Source: Geovibrio thiophilus (GTDB taxonomy: Bacteria; Chrysiogenota; Deferribacteres; Deferribacterales; Geovibrionaceae). From it: 64,000 nucleotides of DNA. Below, in pieces: positions 33,923 through 40,281 of this stretch. The position numbers were made by a program, and so were the translations under genes. Location of the stretch: positions 434,001 to 498,000 of the forward strand of contig NZ_CP035108.1 in the NCBI RefSeq assembly GCF_004087915.1. Direction: 5' to 3'. Numbering within the stretch: position 1 is the stretch's first letter; each line of letters begins with the position of its first letter. The notes beneath the pieces were generated by a model. That model was not told where the DNA came from. It did no database searches and saw nothing but the letters and a program-made list of their open reading frames with translations.

Positions 33923-34071
33923 GGTTAATCCCCTGATAAAAATTGTGTAATAATAATTATGACATCTAAAGGATAAACTTTCCAGAACAATTGTATAGAG
34001 GATGGGAAATTAATTATGAACATCTATGAGGAGAGTGTGATTAATTCAATTCTGTTTATGGGTTTGATTTT

Positions 34072-34344
34072 TTAAGGCCATTGCTGCCTGCTATGAAGAA
34101 TGCGCAGAATATCTATTATATTATCTTTTTCTGCATAAATTAATATGTAGCTGGGATGAATGATTAGTTCACGTGTATTTTTGACCCGTCCTTCTTTATA
34201 CATTTGAGGATAAAGGAGCAATCCGTTTACTTTTTCATCTATCAACTCTTTCAGTGCCTGAGAGGCTTCTGTACTATCATCAGCAATATATGCAAGTATG
34301 GTCAGCAAATCCTCAACAGCCTTGTCTTTCCACTCAATACGCAC
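34072..34344 (-). CDS. RelE/ParE-family toxin
   Basis: The 90-residue protein (RIEWKDKAVEDLLTILAYIA...KEGRVKNTRELIIHPSYILIYA...IDILRILHSRQQWP) matches the ParE/RelE toxin fold and its C-terminal RILHxRQ. Such toxins act on ribosomal mRNA (RelE) or gyrase (ParE); the HSRQQWP ending favours the ParE-type group. It overlaps the antitoxin gene by 11 bases. Confidence 0.9.
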   Translation of the reverse strand: MRIEWKDKAVEDLLTILAYIADDSTEASQALKELIDEKVNGLLLYPQMYKEGRVKNTRELIIHPSYILIYAEKDNIIDILRILHSRQQWP

Positions 34345-34624
34345 ATTTTTTCCGGTTTATTAAGATCTGGGCTTTATTCATTACTTCTTTATGCTCTTCT
34401 GACTTTGTACTTTCAAGAGCTTCCCTCACTTTTGCATGAAACCAGAGATCATACGCTTCCGGATCACTTGTCAATCCGATCGGCAGTGCTCCTTCTTTAA
34501 CAATGCGTGTCAAGAGGATTCTTACGGCATCTGAAACAGTTAGCCCGAAATTGGCGAGCGTTTCAGCAGCCTCGGCTTTTAAATCTTCTTCAATTCTGAC
34601 ATGCAGCATGGATGTTTTAGGCAT
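34334..34624 (-). CDS. RelB/DinJ-family antitoxin
   Basis: The 96-residue protein has the RelB/DinJ ribbon-helix-helix start (LHVRIEEDLKAEAAETLANF then GLTVSDAVRILLTRIVKEGALP). Its C-terminal part (residues 55-96) would wrap the toxin. It comes first in the operon, as expected, and probably represses it through the palindrome at 34647-34664. Confidence 0.92.
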   Translation of the reverse strand: MPKTSMLHVRIEEDLKAEAAETLANFGLTVSDAVRILLTRIVKEGALPIGLTSDPEAYDLWFHAKVREALESTKSEEHKEVMNKAQILINRKKCAY

Positions 34625-34646
34625 AAGAACCTCTTTATATTATCTT

Positions 34647-34670
34647 GTATCTCGTTTGAGATACTGTCAA
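34647..34670 (-). promoter_or_regulatory. Promoter and operator of the RelBE-type pair
   Basis: The palindrome GTATCTC / GAGATAC (34647-34653 and 34658-34664, 4-base centre) abuts a perfect TTGACA -35 on the minus strand (34665-34670). Bound antitoxin would cover the promoter. The -10 is less clear (CAAGAT at 17 bases, TAATAT at 22). Confidence 0.65.
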
Positions 34671-34764
34671 GGGCTCTTTTATCGCATACTGTTATAAGTC
34701 ATTTTTCAATTGCGGGTCTCAGTTTTTTTGAAGTATATTATTTCTGAGTTTTCAGGAAGGTGTT

Positions 34765-35373
34765 ATGGCTTCAAATCGGAAAGTATTTGATTCTAAAATG
34801 TTTATGGATAATTTAAATATTTTTATTAATTCTCATTATGAATTTAAATGCAACAGCAAATATAAGGGTTTTTTCGGAAGGATTAAGGCTCAATTAGACA
34901 GAACAGAGGCAGAGGAAAAGGAATCAAGAAAATCAGGCGAGTCATGGATAGACGATCCTGTTATCTACTTTTCTGATCCTTTAAGTGAAGAAGAGTACCG
35001 GAGACACATTGAGCTCAGTCTTGCCAAAACACTTGAAAAGTCTTTCTCTGCAACACTTATGAAGATTATTGAAGCAAAAGATCAAAACCACATAGACATT
35101 TATAAAAAAGCAAATATTGACCGTAAGCTTTTTTCAAAAATTCGCAACGAAAAGCGATACATACCCAGTAAACGAACGGCTATAGCTTTGGCGGTGGCTC
35201 TAGAGCTTTCTCTCAGCGAAACGCAGGATCTTCTGAAACGAGCGGGTTTTACCCTTTCACGCAGTATTTTATTTGATGTAATTATCGAATACTTCATAAC
35301 ACAGGGCAATTATGACATCTACCAGATAAATGATGCGCTTCATTCCCATAAGCAACCCATTTTAGGCGGTTGA
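34765..35373 (+). CDS. Helix-turn-helix protein of unknown function
   Basis: The 202-residue protein has a charged N-terminal part. A C-terminal XRE-like HTH lies at about residues 110-160 (YKKANIDRKLFSKIRNEKRY, then PSKRTAIALAVALELSLSETQDLLKRAGF). Similar proteins are frequent in accessory regions of many bacteria; I do not know a proven function. The low GC content differs from the chromosomal backbone. It stands between a toxin-antitoxin pair and a second HTH gene. Confidence 0.75.
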   Translation: MASNRKVFDSKMFMDNLNIFINSHYEFKCNSKYKGFFGRIKAQLDRTEAEEKESRKSGESWIDDPVIYFSDPLSEEEYRRHIELSLAKTLEKSFSATLMKIIEAKDQNHIDIYKKANIDRKLFSKIRNEKRYIPSKRTAIALAVALELSLSETQDLLKRAGFTLSRSILFDVIIEYFITQGNYDIYQINDALHSHKQPILGG

Positions 35374-35485
35374 CACAGCATGCTCTAAAATATCAAAAAA
35401 ACTTTCTTTTGTCGCTTTCAGGGCGACCACTTATCCTTTTCTTGGTGGTATGTTCTTTTTCATCGGTATTTGTGCAGATGAGCAG

Positions 35486-35800
35486 CTATAGCTGTTCCTG
35501 CAGCAAACCCTTGATATAGGCTGTTACCTTGTCTTTTTGCGGCTGAGACAGGCGTGACCAGTTTTTCAGGAGTTCATTCTGCTCTTCTGTCAGCGTTGAG
35601 CTTGTGACATCTGAGAAAAATTGAGCAAGTGATATACCGAAGGCATCGCATAGGGCACTTAAAGTGGCAATAGTGGGAGAATTTTCACGGCTGTAAAGAT
35701 TTGAAAGCGTGGATTGAGGGATATTAGCATTTTTTGCGAGTTTGTATGAGCTCCATCCCCGTTCATTTTTTAGCTGTGTGATTTTTTCCAATATGTCCAT
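35486..35800 (-). CDS. XRE-family transcriptional regulator
   Basis: The 104-residue protein is a phage-repressor-type HTH (LKNERGWSSYKLAKNANIPQ, then STLSNLYSRENSPTIATLSALCDAFGIS) with a short helical C-terminus (LSQPQKDKVTAYIKGLL). It is divergent from the small-protein genes at 35926 onward. A long inverted repeat directly at its start (35802-35843) is the likely operator. Confidence 0.88.
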   Translation of the reverse strand: MDILEKITQLKNERGWSSYKLAKNANIPQSTLSNLYSRENSPTIATLSALCDAFGISLAQFFSDVTSSTLTEEQNELLKNWSRLSQPQKDKVTAYIKGLLQEQL

Positions 35801-35801
35801 A

Positions 35802-35843
35802 GCATCTCATTCTTTTCAGTAATGTACTACACAAATGAGATGC
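35802..35843. promoter_or_regulatory. Probable operator of the XRE regulator
   Basis: GCATCTCATT (35802-35811) and AATGAGATGC (35834-35843) are perfect 10-base inverted arms 22 bases apart, starting one base upstream of the regulator's start codon. The spacing (about three helical turns centre to centre) fits two repressor dimers or a looped site. Confidence 0.6.
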
Positions 35844-35925
35844 GCATTACATCAATTAAGAGTTGTATTTAGTTCACAAAAGAGATATAAAGTTGTATAA
35901 AAAAACAATAGTTCAGGAGGGCTTT

Positions 35926-36090
35926 ATGAAAAAGCTTTTAATAGTAATGCTTTTATTGATGTTTTCAGTGTCTGCTTTTGCAGCAGTTCTTATGTCGCAA
36001 TGGACTGAAGGACTGAATAGGTACTGTAAATATAGTGACGGGATAATAATCACTATAAAGTCTTATTCTCTTTGTCCCTTGTCAAAATAA
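35926..36090 (+). CDS. Small secreted protein with C-terminal CKYSDG motif
   Basis: The 54-residue protein has a signal peptide (KKLLIVMLLLMFSVSAFA) and a 35-residue mature part, MSQWTEGLNRYCKYSDG then IIITIKSYSLCPLSK. It has two cysteines that could form a disulfide. AGGAGG lies six bases before the ATG at 35926. I recall similar short exported proteins from proteobacteria and mobile regions, but no function. It is the first of four small genes reading right. Confidence 0.7.
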   Translation: MKKLLIVMLLLMFSVSAFAAVLMSQWTEGLNRYCKYSDGIIITIKSYSLCPLSK

Positions 36091-36091
36091 A

Positions 36092-36232
36092 ATGCTGGAA
36101 TTTGTCCTTATATTAGCAATTTTGCCTTTTGCGCTTTATGGGGCAGTTTTGCTTGTTATGGCAGCACTTGGTATCACAGGCGGCGTTTTAAGTCTGATTG
36201 CCAGCCTGTTCAAGTCTAAAGACAATTATTAA
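36092..36232 (+). CDS. Very small membrane protein
   Basis: The 46-residue frame starts 1 base after the previous stop. It is almost entirely hydrophobic (LEFVLILAILPFALYGAVLL, then VMAALGITGGVLSLIASLF) and ends KSKDNY, suggesting one or two membrane helices. No ribosome site is obvious, so translation would depend on coupling. It could be a membrane-active peptide or a chance frame. Confidence 0.45.
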   Translation: MLEFVLILAILPFALYGAVLLVMAALGITGGVLSLIASLFKSKDNY

Positions 36233-36256
36233 TTTATTAAATTTAAGGGGTTAAAC

Positions 36257-36646
36257 ATGAAAAATTTTTTAGCAATATTGGCAGTAATATTTATTTTGTC
36301 TGCTTGCGGCGGGAGCAATGGCGGGGGAGAACTGCAGGGTGACGAATTTCCTCTCAGTAATCTTGAATGCAGCGGGACTATCGCTGGTGTTGACAGCGGC
36401 AGTTTTGAGCTGGACTATTTCTATGAAACAGAAACTATCGCTGTTTCAACTAATACAAAGAATCTTGGTGCAAGAACTTTTCAGGGAACAATAGACTACA
36501 ATGGCGGTGTTTACATTTGGCAGACAAATCTCCATATAGGGAAAGTAGCATTTAATGAAGATAGTTACTCAATAACCGGAACTTGGAAAAACACTAATGA
36601 CGGCGCAACAGGCACAATGAAAGGGACGTGCAGCGAAATCGAGTAA
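36257..36646 (+). CDS. Small lipoprotein
   Basis: The 129-residue protein has a lipoprotein signal (LAVIFILSACGGSNGGG). A beta-rich mature part follows (LECSGTIAGVDSGSFELDYF...YSITGTWKNTNDGATGTMKG) with two further cysteines. AAGGGG is just upstream. No family recognised. The fold pattern suggests a small beta-sandwich or barrel on a membrane surface. Confidence 0.7.
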   Translation: MKNFLAILAVIFILSACGGSNGGGELQGDEFPLSNLECSGTIAGVDSGSFELDYFYETETIAVSTNTKNLGARTFQGTIDYNGGVYIWQTNLHIGKVAFNEDSYSITGTWKNTNDGATGTMKGTCSEIE

Positions 36647-36674
36647 CCTGCTGACAAAATAGAAGGAGATTTAT

Positions 36675-36959
36675 ATGAAGCTTAAATTGATTGCGGTTAT
36701 GTTGCTTGCTTTAACCACTACGGGGTGTCTTGCATCAAAAAACAGGGCAGTCCTCAAAGCACAAACTGTTACAGACTTGAGAGGGTGCACAAAAATAGGA
36801 AGAATAGAGTATTCGGGAGGTCAGGTTTTTGCCGTTCTCATGCTCGGTCGTGTTGCCGCTGATGGTGCTGCAAGATCGACTTGCGAAGATATGGGAGGTA
36901 ATGTCATACTCGGTGAGGATCTTTGTTACCATTGCTCTGATCTGGATACAGAGTATTGA
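36675..36959 (+). CDS. Small lipoprotein with cysteine-rich body
   Basis: The 94-residue protein has a lipoprotein signal (AVMLLALTTTGCLAS), then TDLRGCTKIGRIEYSG and ARSTCEDMGGNVILGEDLCYHC. The layout resembles DUF4156-type lipoproteins (a C-x-x-L/I-G motif, then an A...GGN motif), but the match is loose. AGAAGGAGA lies 7 bases upstream. It is the last gene before the AT-rich HAD-PRTase-DprA operon. Confidence 0.68.
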   Translation: MKLKLIAVMLLALTTTGCLASKNRAVLKAQTVTDLRGCTKIGRIEYSGGQVFAVLMLGRVAADGAARSTCEDMGGNVILGEDLCYHCSDLDTEY

Positions 36960-37001
36960 AATCCGTAATAGTGTAGACGGCAGGACATCACACAGGCAAA
37001 G

Positions 37002-37020
37002 TATTTGATTTTATCAAATA
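37002..37020. promoter_or_regulatory. Palindrome upstream of the HAD-PRTase-DprA operon
   Basis: TATTTGAT / ATCAAATA are perfect 8-base arms around TTT, 13 bases before the first start codon. It is a candidate operator for control of the operon. Confidence 0.5.
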
Positions 37021-37033
37021 AGGGAACAATATA

Positions 37034-37693
37034 ATGTATAAAATTAACAAAGAACTGCATGATTACATCTATCGAGCTATTGGGGCAAAATATTATTATA
37101 ATAGACAGGTGGGCGATAATTTTAAATTTATGAAAATAACAGATACTCATTTCTTATTTTTTGACTTGGATGGAACATTGGTTGATACCGATTACGCCAA
37201 TTTTTTATCATATTCAGAAGCTATTAAACAAGTATTGGGAATAAATGTTGATTACAACCCCAATGTACGATTTACTCGTGAAATAGTTAAAAAGATAATA
37301 CCAAATATTACTGATAAAACATATGAGAAAGTGGTTAAACAAAAAAACTCTTTTTATAAAAAAAATCTCTCAATGACAAAAATAAATGATTCTATTGTAA
37401 AGATACTGAAACAATATAGTGAGACGAACAAAACGGTCTTAATAACTAATTGTCATGCAGAAAGAGCTATAATAACACTGGATTATCACGGACTTAGCAA
37501 TTTTTTCTATCATAAAATATTTAGGCAAGAACCTCTTGGGAATATTAGTAAGTATAAGAATGCGCTGGACTTACTTAGAATTCCAGCAAAGTGCGTATTT
37601 GCGTTTGAAAACGATAAAACAGAAATTGAAGCAGCTGTTGCTGTAGGAATTCCTCGATGTCAAATACTATGTGTTGGAGTCAGTAATGAATGA
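37034..37693 (+). CDS. HAD-like phosphatase, first gene of ShosTA-like operon
   Basis: The 219-residue protein has HAD motif I FFDLDGTLVDTD (about residue 42), motif II VLITNCH and a lysine in GNISKYKNAL. Motif IV is degenerate, FENDKTEIEAA where GDxxxD is usual. These suggest an active or near-active phosphatase of the phosphoglycolate-phosphatase group. The start at 37034 adds 32 residues before the HAD fold; ATG at 37130 is the alternative. The gene is very AT-rich compared with the backbone and overlaps the next gene by 8 bases. HAD enzymes can dephosphorylate sugar phosphates or nucleotides, so a link with the PRTase product is plausible. Confidence 0.78.
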   Translation: MYKINKELHDYIYRAIGAKYYYNRQVGDNFKFMKITDTHFLFFDLDGTLVDTDYANFLSYSEAIKQVLGINVDYNPNVRFTREIVKKIIPNITDKTYEKVVKQKNSFYKKNLSMTKINDSIVKILKQYSETNKTVLITNCHAERAIITLDYHGLSNFFYHKIFRQEPLGNISKYKNALDLLRIPAKCVFAFENDKTEIEAAVAVGIPRCQILCVGVSNE

Positions 37694-38309
37694 ATTTACA
37701 ATTTCGTCTAATAAATACCTGAGTAAAAATATTAGAGCCTTTTACCATATTAATTATGTGCGCATGGGTAATCCAGGGAACCCTGATTACCTTAATGTAT
37801 TAAAAAATACTTATAATAAGGAACACAGTGCAAAACTAAATAAGGCTAGTGAGAATTTAAGAAATGTTTTGAAGGAGGACTTGCCCAAACTGCTACTTGA
37901 ATTGAAGCTTAAAATGCTAACAGTATGTGTTGTGCCTAGGGCTAAGTCAGAGTCTGCTTACGAAGCAGACCAGTTGCTTTTTAAATCAACTGTCAGAAGT
38001 GTGATAAGTGGGTTAATAGGTTTTGAAGATGGTACAGATTATATCGTTAGATATAAAAACACAAGAACAACACACTTCTATAAAGATATACCAAATTATG
38101 ATAATGACGGTTCATCTCCATATCCAGGAATTTCACGTGATACTTGTCACATTGCACCCTGCGTAAAAGGTAAAAATATTTTATTAATTGATGATATATA
38201 CACTAAAAATGTAAACATAGATGAAGATGCTATTCAAGCATTGTTTGTTCATGGAGCATCAAATGTATTTTTTTATTCAGTAGGCAAAACAAATGAACTA
38301 TTCGGATAA
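37686..38309 (+). CDS. Phosphoribosyltransferase-like protein, ShosT-like
   Basis: The 207-residue protein (from ATG 37686, with GGAG upstream) has a late PRPP-loop-type motif, KNILLIDDIYTKNVNIDEDA. It also has an earlier conserved-looking CVVPRAKSESAY segment, which would hold the phosphate end of the substrate. This is the type I PRTase layout, closest in style to ComF. ShosT, the toxic partner of the ShosTA antiphage pair, is known as a PRTase-domain protein next to a DprA homologue. The pairing here with DprA (17-base overlap) is the main reason for the comparison; sequence identity was not measured. Confidence 0.72.
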   Translation: MNEFTISSNKYLSKNIRAFYHINYVRMGNPGNPDYLNVLKNTYNKEHSAKLNKASENLRNVLKEDLPKLLLELKLKMLTVCVVPRAKSESAYEADQLLFKSTVRSVISGLIGFEDGTDYIVRYKNTRTTHFYKDIPNYDNDGSSPYPGISRDTCHIAPCVKGKNILLIDDIYTKNVNIDEDAIQALFVHGASNVFFYSVGKTNELFG

Positions 38310-39261
38310 TGCAATAAATGTTTTATCTGTGAAATCTTACAGGGGTGTCGGTAGAGCATGGATAATGAAAAACATGAAAGGAAATGAGTCTATAAATACA
38401 ATCGTTGATTTGTTGAACCAGCATTTAAAAGAAACTATTACCGTTGAAGATTTCTATACAACAAGACAACTTATGGTTAATAAAATTATGAGATTAAAGA
38501 ACCATATTGATGGCGTTGTCGCTATTGGTGATGACAACTTCCCTTCACATAGAGGCAATGTCAAACAGAGTGAACAACCAGTGGTGCTATTTTATCGTGG
38601 AGATCTAAGTTTATTAAATAAGAGTAATAAAAATATTGCTGTTATCGGTTTGTTAACCCCCGACAGTAATATTGAAGATATTGAAAAAAAAATTGTTTCA
38701 GAATTAATAAAACATAAAATAACGATAGTTAGCGGGCTAGCACTAGGCTGCGATTCTATTGCCCACAAGCAAGCAATAGACTCTAATGGGACAACAATTG
38801 CAATTCTACCAAGTTCATTAGATGATATTTTGCCTGCATCAAACAAAGTCTTGGCTAAAGAAATAATAAGTAAAAATGGTTTATTAGTGACTGAATACTA
38901 TGAAAAAGCTAAATCCAAACAGGAGTTAGCCAGTAGATATCAAGATAGGGATAGATTGCAAGCCTTATTTAGTGATGGAATTATTTTGTCAGCAAGCTAT
39001 GCAAAGAATGATCAAGGAAACGATAGCGGTTCTCGATTGGCAATGAAGTATGCCTTGAATTATTCAATTCCAAGAGCTGTTTTATACAACTTTCAAACCA
39101 ATGGCAACGATCCTAAATATGATCTCAACAGGCAAATAATAAACGAAGATAGTAACGTTATAGTTATAAATTCCGAAAATCTTACGACATCATTAAAAAT
39201 CATAATTGAGAAGACTCATCGTGTAATATATAAACCGCTGAGCATCACTGATTTTTTATAA
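38293..39261 (+). CDS. DprA/Smf-like protein, ShosA-like
   Basis: The 322-residue protein has the DprA Rossmann core: FYRGDLSLLNKSNKNIAVIG, IVSGLALGCDSIAHKQAI, TTIAILPSSLDDILPASN, then LLVTEYYE and RDRLQALFSDGIILSASYA. Housekeeping DprA loads RecA on incoming DNA. This copy has an unusual N-terminus and lies in an AT-rich operon away from competence genes, so it is more likely the ShosA-like partner (antitoxin) of the PRTase. It is followed by an inverted repeat and the tRNA-derived direct repeat. Confidence 0.78.
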   Translation: MNYSDNAINVLSVKSYRGVGRAWIMKNMKGNESINTIVDLLNQHLKETITVEDFYTTRQLMVNKIMRLKNHIDGVVAIGDDNFPSHRGNVKQSEQPVVLFYRGDLSLLNKSNKNIAVIGLLTPDSNIEDIEKKIVSELIKHKITIVSGLALGCDSIAHKQAIDSNGTTIAILPSSLDDILPASNKVLAKEIISKNGLLVTEYYEKAKSKQELASRYQDRDRLQALFSDGIILSASYAKNDQGNDSGSRLAMKYALNYSIPRAVLYNFQTNGNDPKYDLNRQIINEDSNVIVINSENLTTSLKIIIEKTHRVIYKPLSITDFL

Positions 39262-39321
39262 TTTCTTTCACCTATCTGAGAAATTTTATAAATGGTAACG
39301 TTTAACTGGGGTGGTCTAAGT

Positions 39322-39352
39322 GAACCTAAATATCATTATGTTATTTAGGTTC
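39322..39352. terminator. Inverted repeat after the DprA-like gene
   Basis: GAACCTAAATA / TATTTAGGTTC, perfect 11-base arms with a 9-base loop, is followed by five A. It could end transcription of the operon, or mark the edge of an inserted segment, since it touches the direct repeat at 39353. Confidence 0.5.
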
Positions 39353-39420
39353 AAAAAGGCTTCTCTGATTTCTCAAAGAAGCCTTCAGAACCCGTGTTAA
39401 TGGCGGTACAGGTAATTGAA
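39353..39420. repeat. Left copy of 68-base direct repeat (tRNA-Met 3' end)
   Basis: This matches 40214-40281 with 5 mismatches in 68. It contains a copy of the tRNA-Met terminator hairpin (GGCTTCT...AGAAGCC) and the last 20 bases of the tRNA gene. The tRNA is not continued, so this is a fragment. It is the expected trace of site-specific insertion at a tRNA 3' end. Confidence 0.8.
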
Positions 39421-39539
39421 TTTAAGTAAATTACTTTAATACATTCAAATAGGTGTTATATGTGTTGCGTGATTTTACATAAAAAACTGCCTGTAAAATT
39501 AAATGATAAATCAATAGCATTTATTTGTTTTTAAAAACA

Positions 39540-39566
39540 TTGACTTATAACCATGTAGGTTATAAT
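39540..39566 (+). promoter_or_regulatory. Promoter with embedded operator of higBA
   Basis: TTGACT (39540-39545) and TATAAT (39561-39566) flank and overlap the perfect palindrome TTATAACC / GGTTATAA (39545-39552, 39558-39565). A repressor bound there would block the promoter. The spacer is 15 bases, shorter than ideal. No gene is visible from 39262 to 39573. Confidence 0.6.
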
Positions 39567-39573
39567 TCATTAA

Positions 39574-39855
39574 ATGATCAAGTCTTTCGGCGATAAAGAA
39601 ACTGAGAATGTATTTTATGACGGGAAAAGCAAGAAGCTGCCGTCAGATATTTTGTCCAGAGCCGCAAAAATACTGGACAGGATAAATGCCGCCGACACGA
39701 CAGATTTTCTCCGGCTGCCGCCAAGCCAGAGACCGCATAAGTTTTTTGGCTGTTTAGAAGGGTTTTGGAGTATCAGCATCAATATGCAATGGCGTATAAT
39801 CTTCTGGTTTGAAGAGAGTGATGCCTTTGATGTTGAAATAGTCGATTACCACTGA
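39574..39855 (+). CDS. higB: HigB-family toxin
   Basis: The 93-residue protein begins IKSFGDKETENVFYDGKSKK. It has LRLPPSQRPHKFFGCLEGFWSISIN and ends with the RIIFWFE...DVEIVDYH strand pattern of HigB (plasmid-killer, RelE-fold mRNA interferase). It precedes its antitoxin, the usual order for HigBA. GC is near the backbone, unlike the AT-rich operon to the left. Confidence 0.93.
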   Translation: MIKSFGDKETENVFYDGKSKKLPSDILSRAAKILDRINAADTTDFLRLPPSQRPHKFFGCLEGFWSISINMQWRIIFWFEESDAFDVEIVDYH

Positions 39856-39867
39856 AAGGAGGATATT

Positions 39868-40179
39868 ATGGCTATTCGGAGAGATATATACAGAAAGACG
39901 GAACACCAGCCCGAGCATCCGGGAGAATATCTTTCTGAAATCATTGAAGAAACTCATGGGCTCACGCAGAGCAGTCTGGCTGTTTCCCTTGGTGTATCTT
40001 TCAGGACTATTAACCAGATATGCAATAAACGCAGAGGCATAAGCCCTGAAATAGCTCTGAAACTGAGTAAATTTTTCGGAACCACACCGCAGAGCTGGCT
40101 GAATATGCAGCAGGCTTATGATCTGTGGAAGGCTGAGCAAACCACTGATGTAAGCCATATTCAGACCTTATCCGCCTGA
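39868..40179 (+). CDS. higA: HigA-family antitoxin
   Basis: The 103-residue protein has HPGEYLSEIIEETHGLTQSS, then LAVSLGVSFRTINQICNKRR and FFGTTPQSWLNMQQAYDLW, the HigA/VapI HTH pattern. It neutralises HigB and should repress the operon through the palindrome at 39545-39565. It follows higB after 12 bases, with GGAGG before the start. Confidence 0.94.
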   Translation: MAIRRDIYRKTEHQPEHPGEYLSEIIEETHGLTQSSLAVSLGVSFRTINQICNKRRGISPEIALKLSKFFGTTPQSWLNMQQAYDLWKAEQTTDVSHIQTLSA

Positions 40180-40213
40180 CACCCATACACCTGAAAAAAG
40201 ACAACACCAAATA

Positions 40214-40281
40214 AAAAAGGCTTCTCTGATCTCTCAAAGAAGCCTTTAGAACCCATATTAATGGCGGTACAGGGAATTGAA
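40214..40281. repeat. Right copy of 68-base direct repeat
   Basis: It covers the tRNA-Met terminator and the 3' 20 bases of the intact tRNA-Met. With the copy at 39353-39420 it frames a segment of about 0.86 kb holding only higBA. No integrase gene is present between them. Confidence 0.8.
40216..40250 (-). terminator. Terminator of tRNA-Met
   Basis: On the minus strand, AAGGCTTCTTTGAGAG is followed by ATCAGAGAAGCC and a run of T. The stem closes directly downstream of the tRNA 3' end. Confidence 0.8.

Follow-up and report, generated by a model that had tools for sequence, protein, structure and literature searches.

ShosTA is described in the literature as a phosphoribosyltransferase (PRTase) toxin with a DprA-like antitoxin, and a pair of DprA and PRTase gives protection against T7 and lambda (PMC9122126). 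As relayed in PMC12593503, ShosT acts as PRTase and pyrophosphatase and disturbs purine metabolism, ShosA is a DNA-binding antitoxin, and Gp0.7 of T7 is the trigger (Pu et al., 2025). The solved ShosT structures (8zvb, 8zvc and 8zvd) represent the E. coli P2-type protein, and for ShosA the structure 9vzo is available. In the E. coli P2-type ShosT (424 aa), the PRTase is preceded by weak N-terminal matches to HAD (2.9e-4), which do not reach the curated cut-off. The ShosT of Pf phages is annotated as HAD/PRTase, fused HAD-PRTase genes adjoin DprA on Psychrobacter and rhizobial plasmids, and a plasmid of S. meliloti carries three genes in the order PRTase-DprA-HAD. The view of the preliminary description that a HAD protein is not a standard part of such systems therefore had to be abandoned. 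Furthermore, DprA is followed on an E. coli plasmid by a protein of 1110 aa, annotated as HAD hydrolase or RecQ helicase depending on the plasmid; in this PsyrTA/RqlHI-like locus (L089, 3501-6833), the large protein begins with an intact HAD domain. For Ter systems, PRTase and HAD pairs were proposed to produce a nucleoside/nucleotide signal (PMC7824862). On a plasmid of Rhizobium leguminosarum (L092, 1526-5312), a second, oppositely oriented DprA gene was observed alongside a ShosTA pair.

The window analyzed here, a stretch of 64,000 nt from the genome of Geovibrio thiophilus, contains an operon of three genes on the forward strand. It encodes a C1-capped HAD-superfamily hydrolase (37034-37693; Pfam HAD_2, E = 1.5e-9), whose true start could be Met33 (37130), a PRTase-fold protein equivalent to the PRTase portion of ShosT-like toxins (37686-38309), and, at 38293-39261, a DprA-like protein, a ShosA-like putative antitoxin or sensor. 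In agreement with the preliminary description, the genes overlap by exactly 8 nt (37686-37693) and 17 nt (38293-38309), and their G + C contents of 30.0, 32.2 and 32.9% lie far below that of the window (47.8%).

The DprA-like protein was matched by the Pfam family DNA_processg_A (E = 1.5e-39) and by the PADLOC profile for ShosA (E = 1.9e-50). With the DprA equivalog model TIGR00732 it reaches 115 bits, which is under the cut-off of 191. A housekeeping dprA is located elsewhere in the 3.0-Mb genome at position 1157483 and scores 239.6 bits, compared with 136.8 bits for the protein of the operon. The final DprA tree comprised 28 proteins, including 12 housekeeping DprAs, among them that of the genome itself. 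This version leaves out the Streptomyces and RqlI rows, which formed long branches, and the further two DprAs of Deferribacterota; the DprA of the genome was added. In this tree, a branch with support of 100/98 parts the 12 housekeeping DprAs from all ShosA proteins and the DprA-like branch of the window. The DprA-like proteins of the window, Synechocystis, Nitrospinota, Caldilineales and a presumed Deferribacterales genome (G032) form a clade with support of 100/100, and the order among the ShosA branches, including that of the window, is not resolved by the tree. A housekeeping DprA, which would have spoken against a defence system had it been the only one of the genome, was therefore rejected as the identity of this protein, based on the equivalog cut-off, its position outside the housekeeping clade and the separate dprA.

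The PRTase (207 aa) matches no Pfam family. The PADLOC profile for ShosT detects it with an E-value of 8.9e-8, but this profile is promiscuous and gives hits in every one of the phylum's 51 genomes, so that it was rejected as a genome-wide marker. Because the ShosT profile is not specific, the assignment to ShosTA leans on the DprA tree, the adjacency of the genes and the structure. A structural model of the PRTase was built from three sequences (pLDDT 73). Its top structural alignment is to ComF (7p0h, Z 12.1), followed at lower scores by ShosT 8zvc (Z 10.5) and 8zvd (Z 10.3), and residues 1-206 of the model align on residues 168-366 of 8zvc over 174 residues. When compared with E. coli-type ShosT by hhalign, the PRTase profile matched around the PRPP loop with an E-value of 2.8e-5 and a probability of 74%; overall, the similarity of the PRTase to known ShosT is low. 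The loop itself, noted earlier as being of a DDIYTKN type, reads DDIYTKNVNIDED. Six relatives have the form DDIYT[KP]x[VI]N[IV]DED, whereas the usual form is DDxxTxGx[TS].

According to motif spacing and alignment, the HAD of the window retains the catalytic residues D44, D46, T138 and K173. In all five HADs of its branch, 96 residues separate the Asp of motif I from the Thr/Ser of motif II (C1 cap). Other ShosTs with an intact HAD, whether fused or split, have a spacing of 54-59 residues, and the four E. coli-type regions that were measured have 37-43 residues. The nucleophile Asp is missing in six of seven E. coli-type regions: motif I reads FSIAD in E. coli P2, LSIED in Pseudomonas fragi, FSVED in Bermanella, FSLRD in Rhizobium, FGVDG in Piscirickettsia and ISLRD in Paracoccus. 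In the Streptomyces ShosT HAD region (IDYKA), the first Asp is retained and the second is lost. To judge by the sequences, the HAD appears catalytically inactive in E. coli-type ShosT and active in other ShosTs and in the window. The HAD profile of the window matches fused intact HAD-PRTase ShosTs (E = 8.9e-7, probability 91%) and gave no match to the E. coli-type HAD region (E = 0.31); its similarity to known ShosT is low as well. A predicted structure of the HAD, with solved folds of the beta-phosphoglucomutase/phosphoglycolate phosphatase type as nearest neighbors, was of low confidence (pLDDT 55) and was set aside as too poor to serve as evidence. The HAD of the window can be regarded as a separately encoded counterpart of the ShosT HAD region, of another, C1-capped type.

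The order HAD-PRTase-DprA was also found on plasmid pSYLB of Synechocystis sp. PCC 6714, beside an Abi family gene, in a Nitrospinota MAG and in a Caldilineales MAG. The identity to the proteins of the window is 54-57% for the PRTase, 50-58% for the DprA-like protein and 30-36% for the HAD. Since the identical order recurs in three other phyla, the trio is not a chance arrangement, and the absence of such a recurrence, named beforehand as an argument against the system, does not apply. The suggested conservation of the HAD gene next to ShosTA-like pairs holds for these three loci and fails in G032 (88% complete), which has PRTase and DprA with no adjacent HAD and in which no HAD of the window type was found elsewhere. 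A contig from IMG/VR carrying a relaxase, a primase and an integrase (L069) has HAD and PRTase, and no DprA could be detected on it by tblastn. The PRTase is therefore the constant part, and the HAD is common but not the fixed third member it had been taken for.

On L069 (4137-6332), the HAD preceding the PRTase has an extra N-terminal region of about 285 aa carrying CxxC pairs. Scans of viral contigs with the DprA and PRTase alignments gave no relatives, and those with the HAD and an extended PRTase alignment gave one mobile-element contig only. Profile searches in 400 genomes of the group of G052 and 77 genomes of the group of G051 yielded no further strong relatives, from which it follows that the branch of the window operon is rare. 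Neighboring PRTase and DprA genes without HAD were furthermore seen at three loci (L126, L127 and L128) in other genomes of the window's phylum, in more than one branch.

The operon is part of an accessory island (34003-40209) on the 3′ side of a tRNA-Met gene, which was delimited by comparison with a genome of the same genus (G005). That genome matches the window up to position 34002 and resumes at 40210 with about 31 bp in between, so that the insertion at the tRNA-Met amounts to about 6.2 kb. A second genome of the genus (G004) has other cargo at this site, which shares a HigBA-type pair with 90% identity. The repeat described earlier as tRNA-derived could be traced to a 68-nt direct repeat (93%) at 39353-39420 and 40214-40281, which comprises the 3′ end of tRNA-Met with the sequence that follows it, the former being a partial copy and a scar of the island. 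Due to the near-empty site in G005, the other cargo in G004 and the 68-nt copy, the operon is regarded as cargo acquired at an insertion hotspot next to tRNA-Met. The toxin-antitoxin neighbors reported before are a HigB/HigA-type pair (39574-40179) on one flank of the operon and a ParE/RelB-type pair (34072-34624) on the other, both within the island. The PRTase was not found in the other 11 genomes of the family.

The proposed ShosTA-type identity is thus upheld by the ShosA match, the DprA tree, the separate dprA, the alignment of the PRTase model on ShosT and the mobile setting, to which the plasmid-borne relative adds. Like the window operon, ShosTA of E. coli P2 combines a DprA-like protein with a PRTase of the same fold and a HAD-like region N-terminal in ShosT, in a mobile context. 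In E. coli P2, HAD and PRTase form one protein after shosA and motif I is lost, whereas in the window the HAD is separate, first in the operon, intact and furnished with a C1 cap, and the PRPP loop has another form. The systems of Pf phages, Psychrobacter pA3H5 and rhizobia share with the window an intact-motif HAD tied to PRTase and DprA, but their HAD is fused and short-capped, often with C-terminal zinc ribbons. Three separate genes, as in the window, are present on pHRB800 of Sinorhizobium meliloti, which differs by the order PRTase-DprA-HAD, a short-cap HAD and a canonical-like DDFVTRGGT loop. Since S. meliloti has a split form as well, the separate HAD and PRTase genes mark a variant of the single-protein ShosT. 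PsyrTA/RqlHI (RecQ-PRTase and DprA-like antitoxin) resembles the operon in its PRTase and DprA-like pair and, in the E. coli plasmid form, in its HAD, but it has a RecQ helicase, which is absent from the window operon with its 207-aa PRTase ORF. Apparently new here are the separate HAD of another type, the loss of the catalytic motif in E. coli-type ShosT HADs and the altered PRPP loop (DDIYTxxVNIDED).

Taken together, the trio, with its tight gene overlaps and its place in an island beside toxin-antitoxin pairs, is probably a split-toxin, ShosTA-like toxin-antitoxin or abortive-infection module, for which we infer toxicity and a role in phage defence. HAD and PRTase would jointly do the work that fused ShosT does in one chain. 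With the help of PRPP or a comparable pyrophosphoryl sugar, the PRTase may act on a substrate from the nucleotide pool, and the HAD may strip pyrophosphate or phosphate off the substrate or product. This removal would make the reaction one-way and unbalance the nucleotide pool. The DprA-like protein would restrain the toxin or repair its damage through DNA or recombination intermediates, and phage DNA metabolism could occupy it and so release the toxin. Several PRTase-DprA lineages have a seemingly competent HAD hydrolase, and the E. coli-type branch appears to have lost the catalytic motif. A more tentative extension, for which we see a minor though real chance, is that the nucleotide toxin consists of two enzymes, of which the HAD is an ancestral one required for catalysis, that E. 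coli-type ShosT lost it, and that the split operon with its altered loop makes a different product. If so, the chemistry deduced from E. coli-type ShosT structures would miss a phosphatase step. In the split form, the enzymes can be expressed and assayed separately, which makes the role of the HAD, and whether the toxin consists of one enzyme or two, directly addressable.

Alternatively, the HAD could be a second antitoxin rather than a part of the toxin, clearing or recycling a toxic phosphoribosyl product as suggested in the preliminary description. Its intact phosphatase residues and its position as the first gene, frequent for antitoxins, would suit this role, which we nevertheless consider unlikely: a PRTase and DprA pair without HAD exists in G032, and other ShosTs carry the HAD region in one chain with the PRTase, so that a joint enzyme fits better. 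Still less probable is that PRTase and HAD make a small nucleoside or nucleotide second messenger in a Ter-like manner, with the DprA-like SLOG-fold protein binding messenger or DNA as sensor or effector. Ter operons also keep PRTase and HAD together, with the proposed signal mentioned above, HAD and PRTase occur without DprA on L069, and the PRPP loop is unusual. Ter operons, however, have different PRTase families, the PRTase of the window has no match to these or any other Pfam PRTase family, no Ter gene (TerD, TelA or TerC) was found among the scanned neighbors, and the nearest relatives are ShosTA-like. That the genes are a helper set for DNA uptake or recombination, as the top structural match to ComF (Z 12.1) and the function of DprA as a transformation protein might suggest, is very improbable given the separate housekeeping dprA, the ShosA-like branch of the DprA-like protein, the sporadic, horizontally moved occurrence with none in the other 11 genomes of the family, the plasmid location in a relative and the toxin-antitoxin pairs alongside.

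With respect to the flanks of the trio, two small ORFs (36257-36959), predicted to be lipoprotein-like and not matched by any family, are located immediately 5′ of the operon. The palindrome TATTTGATTTTATCAAATA, read from the sequence 5′ of the operon and described earlier as its boundary, exists at 37002-37020 and has no conserved counterpart in front of the homologous operons; situated in AT-rich DNA, it is a possible candidate operator. The inverted repeat at the 3′ side, previously placed at 39322-39352, is present at 39321-39353 with 16-nt arms of 94% identity.
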